Source: Paracoccaceae bacterium | GTDB taxonomy: Bacteria; Pseudomonadota; Alphaproteobacteria; Rhodobacterales; Rhodobacteraceae | Direction: 5' to 3' | DNA length: 47,611 nt | NCBI GenBank assembly: GCA_902602765.1 | Contig: CACKSH010000012.1 | Span: 1-47,611, forward strand | Shown: piece after piece, positions 9,783-22,551 of the stretch | Numbering within the stretch: position 1 is the first letter of the stretch | How the letters are laid out: every line of letters starts with the position of its first letter | Program-made: the position numbers and the translations under genes | Notes under the pieces: generated by a model | Databases searched by the model: none | What the model was told of the DNA's origin: nothing | What the model saw: the letters and a program-made list of their open reading frames with translations, nothing else

Positions 9783-10078
9783 TAATATTTCCTAAAAACA
9801 TCCATCGTAACACTACTTTTATTGCATTATAACATAAGCACAAATAACTGGCAGTTTTACAAAACTTCTCTTTGTATTTGGTGTTAATACCTCTTGTCTA
9901 TTTTGAGATAATCAGCTTGCATCCCAATTACTCATCATCCTTTACGGGTATGACGTCAATGGCTCTAATTTAATAGGATCACCAGAAGCGCTTAAAACAA
10001 TAAAAAAAGGGTCCACATTTTAAATTCCTTGCTTTGCGTTGGTTATTAAACTCTATACCATAGGCATTATTAAATTTG

Positions 10079-10402
10079 ATGAAAGATTTATTTATGAATG
10101 GGCCAGTGAAGTTTTGTGCGATTCTTACAATGCGCTATACCAACAAATCATTGATGCAAAGCGCCCATGATTACATTGACGAGCATATGCCGCCGCCGCC
10201 GCAGGGCTTGGTTGCTATCCGCTCTTTTCATATAGCACCAGACAGAGGCATGAGCATTTGTTATTTTGATACGAATGAAAATCTTAACAACGCTTTTCCA
10301 TTACTTAAAGAATTTCAGCTAGGCGTAGCAGCAAAGTTTGAGGCAAAAGCTGATGCACAAAAAGCCATCACGTCATCTCAGTCTGACTTTGGAGAAGTCT
10401 AA
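10079..10402 (+). CDS. Small alpha/beta-barrel-like protein
   Basis: About 107 residues from the ATG at 10079; a second ATG at 10094 would remove five residues and begins nearer the first strand (VKFCAILTMRY). Neither has a convincing ribosome binding site. The pattern strand, helix (NKSLMQSAHDYIDEH), Pro-rich turn (MPPPPQG), strand (LVAIRSFHIAPDRGMSICYF), helix and a short tail fits one ferredoxin-like domain of the kind repeated through this window. No close paralogue within the window and no known function. Convergent with the next gene, 22 nt apart. Confidence 0.55.
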   Translation: MKDLFMNGPVKFCAILTMRYTNKSLMQSAHDYIDEHMPPPPQGLVAIRSFHIAPDRGMSICYFDTNENLNNAFPLLKEFQLGVAAKFEAKADAQKAITSSQSDFGEV

Positions 10403-16979: not shown

Positions 16980-17597
16980 TTGGGCTATAAATTATATTAC
17001 GCAGAGGGAACCGCATCGATGGGTGTGCGAGTACTTCTAGAAGAAATCGGCGCTCCTTACGAACTCATATCGACAACGACCATCCGAGGCAAACCACGAC
17101 CACCGGCGCAATTAAGAATTAATCCAAATGGATGGGTACCAGTACTTATTTGGGACGATGGGGCAATGTATGAGTGCGCAGCTATAACAATATTTCTATG
17201 TGATCGTCATCAAGACGCAAAGTTAGCTCCAGCGCCCAATTCACCATTGCGTAGTCTTTTTCTCCAGACGCTCGTTTACTTCTCTAGTTCAATTCAAACT
17301 GCATTTCAGCAGGATTATCACCCATATCGATTTGCGGATAAGATAGAAGATGAGCCAGGAGCAAAAAGACGTGGGCAAAAAAGGTTAATGGAGACTTTGC
17401 AGATAATCGATGACCAAATTGGAGAGAATAAATGGATTCTAGGTGAGTGTTTTAGCGCAGCCGATATATATTTATATATGCTTACAACTTGGCTTAAACC
17501 ATCGCGAGAGCATCCAGAACTAAGTAACTTCCCTAATGTGCAGCGGATCGCCAAACAAACAGGGGTTCGACCTAGCATTAAATTAGTTTATGGATAG
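16980..17597 (+). CDS. Glutathione S-transferase family protein
   Basis: A 205-residue GST. N-terminal domain: YKLYYAEGTASMGVRVLLEE, with the Ser/Tyr-type start, then NPNGWVPVLIWDDGAMYECA, giving the cis-Pro and the Glu-Cys pair that replaces the usual Glu-Ser. The C-terminal helical domain contains GENKWILGECFSAADIYLYM, the family's N-capping box. TTG start, with AAGGAAA about six nt upstream. Resembles bacterial beta/theta-like GSTs of unknown substrate. Separate from the other GST at 13496 in sequence. Confidence 0.85.
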   Translation: MGYKLYYAEGTASMGVRVLLEEIGAPYELISTTTIRGKPRPPAQLRINPNGWVPVLIWDDGAMYECAAITIFLCDRHQDAKLAPAPNSPLRSLFLQTLVYFSSSIQTAFQQDYHPYRFADKIEDEPGAKRRGQKRLMETLQIIDDQIGENKWILGECFSAADIYLYMLTTWLKPSREHPELSNFPNVQRIAKQTGVRPSIKLVYG

Positions 17598-21081: not shown

Positions 21082-21411
21082 ATGACTTTATCGGCAATTG
21101 AAAGACTTAATAAATGGGAAAAAGCCTTCTCGACAGGAAACACCTCTGAAGTAGACGAAATGCTTGCTGAAGATTATGTATTTGAAACTACAGACGGGAA
21201 CCATGAGACTAAAAATGAAGTTTTGAGTTGGGTTTCTGAAGGTGGCCAGTCCATTGGTGACTTTAAAGTTTACCATGAGGATGAGAGCATAATTTGCGGC
21301 CGGCACTCATATAAGCAAGACGGCGAACCTGAATGGGAGGTTATGTTTTTTGCAAGATTTGAAAATAATAAGTGTAAGTTTTGGAAGCTGCACGGCGGCG
21401 TAAAAAATTAA
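21082..21411 (+). CDS. SnoaL-like / NTF2-fold protein
   Basis: A 109-residue protein from ATG 21082, with GAGGA eight nt upstream; the longer frame from 21052 has no SD. RLNKWEKAFSTGNTSEVDEM, LAEDYVFETTDGNHETKNEV, then YHEDESIICGRHSYKQDG and EVMFFARFENNKCKFWKLHG follow the helix-helix-strand order of SnoaL/DUF4440 proteins, ending in the long antiparallel strands. Such domains act as small hydrolases, isomerases or ligand pockets; here no catalytic Asp/His pair is clear. Monocistronic. Confidence 0.72.
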   Translation: MTLSAIERLNKWEKAFSTGNTSEVDEMLAEDYVFETTDGNHETKNEVLSWVSEGGQSIGDFKVYHEDESIICGRHSYKQDGEPEWEVMFFARFENNKCKFWKLHGGVKN

Positions 21412-21453
21412 ACACGGACCAACCCACTACTTATTTCTCGCAGCTAGATAGGA

Positions 21454-21672
21454 CTAAGTTCGATTATATCCACGATCTAGATTAGCGTCGGTCCCACAGA
21501 CATCTCCCGTGCAACATTCAAATATATTTGATTTGCAAACAGCACAAGCTTCATGTCCATGAACCACTATTGTGTTAAGTGGTGCTGAGCACCTAGGACA
21601 TCTCTGAATGTGTTGGTTTAATGGATGCTGGTGGTTGTCCAAATTTATTTCCGTTCGCCAATCTAATTTCAA
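21454..21672 (-). CDS. Small zinc-ribbon-like protein
   Basis: A 72-residue protein with a zinc-ribbon pattern: CPRC at residues 25-28, a strand-turn (SAPLNTIVVHGHEACAVC), and then CCTGDVC. The C-P-x-C ... C-x-V-C set is the ribbon; the extra CC-x4-C tail is unusual. TTG start with AGGG six nt upstream; an upstream stop codon in frame rules out a much longer form. I recall similar short HGHxxCAVC proteins in Rhodobacterales. It lies about 100 nt downstream of the very Cys-rich peptide gene on the same strand, so the two may share metal handling, which is inference. Confidence 0.65.
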   Translation of the reverse strand: MKLDWRTEINLDNHQHPLNQHIQRCPRCSAPLNTIVVHGHEACAVCKSNIFECCTGDVCGTDANLDRGYNRT

Positions 21673-21773
21673 ATATTGCCCTGTAATAAATATCGATCAG
21701 CCATTCCAAAGTGAAAATCCAAGAAATTGCTCGCGAAATTTTCCGACTCAGAAACCATAAATGATTGAAATTC

Positions 21774-21926
21774 TTAATTACAAAGACAATGCTCAGAGTC
21801 AGTCGTACAATCTGTCTCACAACAATCGCAGCTTACACAGTTATCGACGTTACCACAGTCGCAACTGCTACAGTTACAGTCACGACTACAACAATCACAG
21901 TGATTATATTCTTTATCTAAATCCAT
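21774..21926 (-). CDS. Cysteine-rich 50-residue peptide, metallothionein-like
   Basis: An ATG-to-TAA frame encoding 50 residues, 14 of them Cys (positions 10, 12, 13, 17, 19, 22, 24, 30, 33, 35, 36, 40, 47, 49), arranged as C-x-C-C, C-x-C, C-x-x-C-x-C and C-x-x-C-x-C-C clusters with many Asp and Ser. No hydrophobic segment, so no signal peptide. Such clustering is characteristic of metallothioneins, which bind Zn, Cu or Cd in thiolate clusters, although it does not match the bacterial SmtA pattern I know. An in-frame stop lies three codons before the ATG. There is no ribosome binding site at normal distance (AAGGG is 18 nt away), the main reservation. Confidence 0.6.
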   Translation of the reverse strand: MDLDKEYNHCDCCSRDCNCSSCDCGNVDNCVSCDCCETDCTTDSEHCLCN

Positions 21927-22060
21927 GTTGTATAGTTACACAGGCCCTTACATCCGTCAAATAAAATATGCCACTATAGTATCTACCCTTCCGTGGGGTT
22001 ATATGTTTACAAATATGCGAAAATCAAATTTGATATTTGCATAACGATAAGGAGAAAATA

Positions 22061-22333
22061 ATGTTTGTATCTTTTACCGATTGGGAATTTGATGGAAATG
22101 TAGATAATGCAGTAGAAGCGGCTAAAGGTTTTTGGCCTGAAATGAAAAAGCATGGTGCAGTAAACATGCGTGCGACGGTCACTGGGGAAAAAACAATAAG
22201 AACCATGACGGTCTGGAGCAGTAAAGAACAGATTGAAGCAGCGATAGATGACATTAGAGCAGCAGCTAGCTCGGCAGTAGGCATGACTGTAACAGGCGGA
22301 ATGATGGGTGAGCTGGCAGTCGAGCTTGACTAA
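22061..22333 (+). CDS. Small alpha/beta-barrel-like protein (paralogue of the gene at 35335)
   Basis: A 90-residue protein starting MFVSFTDWEFDGNVDNAVE, with AAGGAG seven nt upstream. A long helix (AAKGFWPEMKKHGAVN), a strand pair (RATVTGEKTIRTMTVWSSK), a helix (EQIEAAIDDIRAAASSAV) and a last strand (GELAVELD) make up the fold. It is identical to the gene at 35335 at about 61 of 90 positions, including the first 16 residues and the last four, and the lengths are equal. A recent duplication within this genome. Function unknown; the 'EKTIRTMTVWSS' strand is the usual dimer interface of barrel proteins. Confidence 0.72.
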   Translation: MFVSFTDWEFDGNVDNAVEAAKGFWPEMKKHGAVNMRATVTGEKTIRTMTVWSSKEQIEAAIDDIRAAASSAVGMTVTGGMMGELAVELD

Positions 22334-22343
22334 TTGATCGGTT

Positions 22344-22361
22344 GGGCGTTTAGCCCCGCCC
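22344..22361 (+). terminator. GC-rich hairpin after small barrel gene
   Basis: GGGCG (22344-22348) pairs with CGCCC (22357-22361) around an eight-nt loop, 10 nt after the stop codon. There is no U-tract, so it may only stabilise the mRNA end. Confidence 0.35.
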
Positions 22362-22551
22362 TGCTGCCTTCTTGCGAAACGCTATAGCCCGCTACTAAAC
22401 TTTTACCGTGGTATTTAAACTGCGCGGTAGATAGACATTATAAATTAACAACATTTATATGAACACAGCTAGCATGCGTTTTTCTATCTTAACAAATTTA
22501 TGATTAAAGGGTTTCGACCGCCAACTAATTCTCAGTAAGATTTTTCTAGCA

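Follow-up and report, generated by a model that had tools for sequence, protein, structure and literature searches.

A genus-restricted, cysteine-dense 50-residue peptide of marine Rhodobacteraceae, predicted to be an acidic thionein

Is a minus-strand frame in which 14 of 50 codons specify cysteine a gene at all and, if so, what might its product do? The question was raised by a locus within the window, i.e., the whole stretch of 47,611 nucleotides that was analysed:

21774..21926, minus strand: metallothionein-like open reading frame, stop codon included; 50 amino acids, 14 cysteines

Coordinates, start, stop, length and number of cysteines are as given by the first-pass annotation, and an in-frame stop does lie just upstream, three codons separating it from the ATG. 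Translation yields MDLDKEYNHCDCCSRDCNCSSCDCGNVDNCVSCDCCETDCTTDSEHCLCN, followed by the stop. With a cysteine fraction of 0.28 the frame ranks highest among the 314 window frames of at least 35 amino acids (runner-up 0.143), and in 100 resamples of the window by a first-order Markov model the maximum was 0.196. The cysteines are arranged as C-x-C-C-x3-C-x-C-x2-C-x-C-x5-C-x2-C-x-C-C-x3-C-x6-C-x-C, while the spacers consist mostly of Asp, Glu, Asn, Ser and Thr. Since a signal or hydrophobic segment is absent, the peptide is cytoplasmic by the look of it. Its pI is 4.05, which is the floor of the method.

Searching related genomes with the peptide, as had been suggested earlier, was productive. 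The peptide was compared against 101 genomes and a profile against 16 genomes of the genus, and the profile search revealed homologues in eight of the latter, namely the window's own genome (G000), G003, G004, G005, G008, G009, G011 and G012, with E-values from 1.8e-24 to 5.4e-20; the other matches within the genus (E 0.12-0.2) are ferredoxins. All eight homologues align over 50 residues without a gap, with a start codon at the position of the window's ATG (seven ATG, one GTG). The two outcomes which the first-pass annotation had considered damaging to its proposal, cysteine codons that are not conserved and a frame broken in relatives, did not occur: the sense frame is open in 8/8 homologues and cysteine is retained in 111 of 112 cells, the sole departure being Cys12 to Tyr (C12Y) in G011. 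TGT and TGC are mixed in 11 of the 14 cysteine columns, which thus change silently, and 125 synonymous pair differences stand against seven non-synonymous ones in these columns, all seven from C12Y in G011. Since cysteine is kept while its codons change silently, there is selection for cysteine. The comparison of synonymous with non-synonymous change, likewise proposed earlier, gave dN/dS values (NG86) of 0.030-0.232 in 16 of 28 pairs, dS not being computable in the other 12, and the variable columns are distributed 20/20/41 over the three codon positions.

One might nevertheless suspect that a repetitive stretch rich in TGT and TGC produced the frame by chance or as an antisense artefact. An antisense frame (21761-21964, plus strand) is indeed open in the window copy, and over the stretch opposite the thionein it is open in five of the eight homologues including G008. 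However, it is broken in G004, G009 and G012, the codon-level selection for cysteine acts in the minus frame and the cysteine density exceeds all 100 window resamples. Given this selection together with the breakage of the antisense frame in three of eight homologues, we consider the artefact refuted, with a practically negligible residual probability. Thus, 21774-21926 on the minus strand is a genuine small gene under selection that belongs to no catalogued family and is restricted to the genus within the scope of our searches.

To which proteins can its product be compared? Pfam, NCBIfam and PHROGs delivered no credible match for the peptide, the one Pfam match (DUF7718, 0.13) lying below the cut-off. 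The first-pass annotation had remarked that the SmtA pattern does not fit, and this holds: neither the peptide nor six homologues matched PF02069 (SmtA) at E <=1, and this family exceeds its curated cut-off in 0/16 genus genomes, while the control search was positive in 1 of 14 well-known genomes. Among open-licence papers, judged by title and opening of the abstract, none dealt with a metallothionein from this genus or with the cysteine pattern. Members of the homologue set weigh 5.35-5.53 kDa and comprise 26-28% cysteine, 11-13 Asp plus Glu, 0-2 aromatic residues and 0-3 histidines, none of the latter in an invariant column (8 members). Small size, high cysteine content, CxC, CC and CxxC motifs and few aromatics, the broad functional traits of metallothioneins, are all present. 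With SmtA, BmtA and PmtA (PF02069) the peptide shares small size, cysteine richness, the absent signal segment and CxC motifs. However, 14 cysteines in 50 residues differ from the 8-10 in 55-79 residues given for SmtA and PmtA in a table of PMC8636135. Furthermore, the peptide has no conserved histidine and few hydrophobic residues, in contrast to bacterial metallothioneins, for which conserved histidine and hydrophobic residues are described as usual and the fold is of the GATA-type zinc finger (PMC10612145). Mammalian metallothioneins hold 18-23 cysteines in 60-68 residues (PMC8636135). The peptide is like vertebrate-type metallothioneins in its similar cysteine density, its few aromatics and in having no conserved ligand other than cysteine. 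The vertebrate alpha domain likewise contains the run C-x-C-C-x3-C. Vertebrate-type proteins are however rich in lysine, while the peptide is acidic and has 14 cysteines. No metallothionein was found among PDB matches at E <=10, neither with the single sequence nor with the profile. Thus the peptide appears to resemble animal metallothioneins in style, without detected homology. MymT, the mycobacterial copper metallothionein, has fewer than the 14 cysteines of the peptide. By description, it is akin to our case as a bacterial thionein apart from SmtA and as a small unannotated frame (PMC7558416).

Because of the make-up of the peptide, the simplest reading is a thionein with Zn, Cd or Cu(I) as the centre about which it folds. 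We propose, with a probability of roughly 0.7, a genus-restricted acidic 50-residue thionein in animal metallothionein style, not of the SmtA/BmtA kind, which is predicted to buffer or sequester a soft metal. Its 14 conserved cysteines would wrap metal ions in thiolate clusters, and the metal buffered or sequestered might be Zn, Cd or Cu(I). This would correspond to the mode of animal-type metallothioneins, with dense cysteines, no conserved histidine and a chain that is probably disordered without metal. Metal binding, the identity of the metal and the physiological role are what we infer here. AlphaFold2 gave no confident fold and no usable model (mean pLDDT 48.8, alignment of seven rows); such low confidence would be expected for an apo-thionein, but an alignment of seven rows could give the same result. 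Several observations speak against a thionein: residues 27-44 fit an iron-sulphur loop as well, the gene occurs in 8/16 genomes only, its neighbours differ, no metal transporter or regulator was recognised among the 28 window proteins scanned and one cysteine is lost in G011.

The first of these observations concerns the following segment:

21795..21848, minus strand: CX2CX2CX3C (C30, C33, C36, C40) within residues 27-44, like the second [4Fe-4S] loop of FdxA-like ferredoxins; the database E-value is not significant

The product might be a mini iron-sulphur protein, a shrunken ferredoxin in which one [4Fe-4S] cluster is bound by C30, C33, C36 and C40 and a second cluster by the remaining cysteines. 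The ferredoxin spacing CX2CX2CX3C is exact in 8/8 members and is joined over 18 positions by flanking acidic residues as in FdxA-type ferredoxins, FdxA being presumably the type that is resembled. When the PDB was searched with the profile, all 57 matches at E <=10 fell within residues 26-44 of the peptide and were ferredoxins or PsaC (best E 0.078; 0.024 with the single sequence), versus no match for each of three permuted control profiles with fixed cysteines. Compared with 14 ferredoxins (14 loci), 0/200 permuted profiles reached the real best of 15.5 bits (permuted best: mean 5.0, maximum 12.9), and the BLOSUM score at non-cysteine positions against the genus's ferredoxin loop gave permutation P <=0.015 in 8/8 members. 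However, no ferredoxin match is significant by database E-value, and the 15.5 and 15.0 bits belong to two sequences outside the genus, while the other 12, the genus's own included, gave 2.8-8.9. Plain identity to the ferredoxin loop reached P <0.02 in only four of eight members (0.33 in G004); moreover, the ferredoxin was chosen as best scorer, a choice biased in its favour, and the eight members share ancestry. The proline of the CP motif is Thr in 8/8 members, so that the CX2CX2CX3CP loop is incomplete, the hydrophobic core and the rest of a ferredoxin are absent and the seven cysteines before C30 stay unexplained. Pfam ferredoxin gave no match at E <=1 (7 members). Since the resemblance of the loop extends beyond cysteines we keep the iron-sulphur protein as a rival, albeit an unlikely one. 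The resemblance itself may reflect descent, shared function or convergence.

Part of this loop is also part of an internal repeat:

21876..21899, minus strand: internal repeat C[DE]CCxx[DE]C, copy 1, residues 10-17; two copies in 7/8 homologues
21807..21830, minus strand: internal repeat C[DE]CCxx[DE]C, copy 2, residues 33-40; assessed by shuffles and a DNA repeat

When three members were shuffled 100,000 times each, two copies of C[DE]CCxx[DE]C arose in 6-7 of the shuffles; two copies of the cysteine-only form CxCCxxxC arose in 1,254 of 100,000. As the latter is far commoner, much of the rarity of the repeat stems from its acidic residues. At the DNA level, a 13-nt repeat lies within the gene with copies 69 nt apart, although short two-copy repeats are often chance. 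One might speculate that a thionein family was born within the genus from a ferredoxin [4Fe-4S] loop plus duplication of C[DE]CCxx[DE]C, and that its members may to this day hold a cluster of the iron-sulphur or mixed metal-thiolate type. We consider this origin improbable, but if it were true it would document how a ferredoxin fragment can become a metallothionein.

The cysteines might serve another purpose in a RiPP precursor, where they would be cyclised or oxidised by enzymes and not bind metal as free thiols. The peptide is indeed short and cysteine-rich with Ser/Thr between the cysteines, and neither a metal transporter nor a metal regulator was recognised alongside among the 28 window proteins (Pfam). 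However, no modifying enzyme was recognised among the window proteins by Pfam either, the neighbourhood of the gene differs between genomes and Ser14 and Thr41 are the only invariant Ser/Thr of the members. In addition, the MNIO family PF05114 occurs in 0/16 genus genomes (53-96% complete), with positive controls in Caulobacter vibrioides and Deinobacterium chartae. We thus regard a RiPP precursor as very unlikely, and the thionein remains our preferred reading.

Another candidate for a functional context is found next to the thionein gene:

21454..21672, minus strand: zinc-ribbon-like frame, 72 amino acids, first start codon TTG; about 100 nt downstream of the thionein frame

The first-pass annotation had pointed to this gene as following on the same strand, which is correct, but the gene does not look like a partner. 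A partnership, in which the peptide and the zinc-ribbon protein act together, would fit the arrangement in G000, G003 and G008, where both genes lie on the same strand about 100 nt apart. However, only in these three does the zinc-ribbon gene adjoin the thionein. It is a separate gene in 14/16 genus genomes, six of which lack the thionein frame, and the remaining five thionein genomes carry it on a different contig or, in the case of G005, at a distance of about 14 kb. A partnership is therefore highly improbable. The 72-residue frame itself has no credible Pfam, NCBIfam or PHROG match and is present four times in a genome from a different genus (G060); this small cysteine protein merits separate attention.

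In general, gene neighbourhoods differ between genomes except among G000, G003 and G008, where the next gene upstream encodes an alpha/beta hydrolase that is present in those 3/16 genomes only. Three neighbours each are common to G009 and G011 (72, 73 and 81% identity) and to G004 and G012 (64, 48 and 26%), with a few weaker pairs elsewhere; such neighbours in common may include paralogues. As a side observation, 5000-28000 of the window is occupied by an extended series of small genes of various kinds (GST, pentapeptide repeat, GFA, creatininase, one weakly SnoaL-like and several without a family), the content of which partly differs between genus genomes, so that it looks like a flexible region.

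In contrast to the neighbours, the region in front of the gene is conserved:

21947..21967, minus strand: conserved upstream element ATTTTRTTTGACSGACGTTAA; the window copy departs at 3 positions; fixed distance to the start codon
21927..21946, minus strand: leader from the element to the start codon; no Shine-Dalgarno sequence in the window copy

TTTRTTTGA(C/T) is common to the eight copies and a remnant in G014, with 29 bases to the start codon in 9/9 (counted by eye). Since the leader is conserved across differing neighbourhoods, the gene might form its own transcription unit, and the element could act as promoter, operator or leader. The leader shows no consensus RNA pair and 21400-22400 no Rfam match. 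The sequence TTGACG-16-TAACTA could be a near-leaderless promoter in the window's lineage, but this is a guess, as a sigma-70 consensus scan called no minus-strand site upstream. We rejected the element as a regulon motif: its only other site in the same genome (L079, G000:C1:163496-163516) has 3 mismatches and is taken as chance, since the backward control pattern also matched once. That site sits inside a coding frame, at the start of a GTPase-like reading frame which we take to be a CobW/COG0523 GTPase. The CobW/COG0523 family is tied to zinc.

A ribosome binding site is missing in the window copy, as the first-pass annotation had observed. It had considered this its weak point; however, by a crude rule a Shine-Dalgarno sequence is lacking in 16 of 27 hand-picked window frames, the thionein included and some starts being uncertain or doubtful, so that the absence says little. 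Four relatives do possess a site. GGGAGG or GAGAGG stands 7 bases before the ATG in G004, G005 and G009, and AAAGGG 6 bases before the GTG of G011; the G014 remnant likewise has GAGAGG 7 bases before ATG. G000, G003, G008 and G012 instead show TGTGTAACT or a relative of it at this position, and the AAGG of G008, one base before the ATG, is too close. A quick tree computed from the rpoB region places G008 and G012 together in one of its deep clades, whereas G004, G009 and G014 belong to the second. As presence and absence of the site follow the clades for the genomes in this tree, the missing site looks like a lineage difference, and the mRNA might be leaderless or weakly led in the lineage of the window copy.

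How did the gene come to its patchy distribution? Within what was searched, it is confined to one genus of marine Rhodobacteraceae; one record with a homologue, REDSEA-S34_B6, stems from the Red Sea water column, depth 10 (PMC4932879). In a family sample of 394 genomes from 393 genera (two genomes of this genus), no match other than the window's own was better than E 0.0062. From the overlapping class (385 genomes) and phylum (398 genomes) samples a single foreign match each was obtained, with E 0.0068 and 0.0080 respectively, and these two are ferredoxin-like loops. Matches at E <=0.5 occurred in 132 of the 394 family-sample genomes, the window's own included, and most among the matches listed lie at residues 27-44. 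Each of 14 inspected loci of weak matches holds a ferredoxin; a further 13 were inspected by their most cysteine-dense frame, which is not always the match itself. Four candidate homologues were rejected from the sequence at the match, L063 and L064 because they read as ferredoxin loops, L035 and L036 because they appear unrelated. Phages and plasmids gave no tblastn match at E <=0.1, and no homologue was confirmed in IMG/VR (two peptide patterns, 58 stretches).

Since the genus genomes are 53-96% complete, some absences may be assembly gaps. Among those at least 90% complete, G011 (90%) and G012 (95%) carry the gene and G007 (96%) does not. The rpoB tree comprises 10/16 genomes, as 11 had a match and the fragment of G000 was omitted (G003, G005 and G011 are absent as well), and each of its two deep clades contains two gene-bearing genomes plus others without the gene. 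In G014 (L084, G014:C15; leader 17183-17203) the leader through GAGAGG and ATGATGTC is kept, the latter being like the gene opening in G004, while the frame is gone. According to blastn, 304 bases of G005 (9946-10249), in which the start codon and the frame lie, are replaced by 18 bases in G014; both realign downstream of the gap at 77% and differ upstream of the element. To judge from these alignments, the gene seems to have been truly lost in G014, where a natural deletion remnant is left. A free mobile cassette was rejected: the locus has a single short direct repeat, which lies inside the gene, and neighbours partly recur in distant members. For these two reasons, old residence and inheritance with local rearrangement and loss fit better than free mobility.

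Bacterial metallothioneins are described as rare, those named in a review (PMC7558416) being SmtA with its relatives and MymT. If our reading is true, marine Rhodobacteraceae would possess an animal-like, histidine-poor thionein with 28% cysteine, and metal-thiolate buffering would have originated one more time. Two questions could then be addressed in a small system: what leads certain marine heterotrophs to retain a metal store which close relatives drop, and whether iron-sulphur loops can give rise to thioneins. Finally, a 30-base near-palindrome around ATCAAATTTGAT (22014-22043) lies between the thionein gene and a divergent gene that starts near 22061 on the plus strand; its core is present in G003 and G008 too, and the palindrome might serve that gene as operator.
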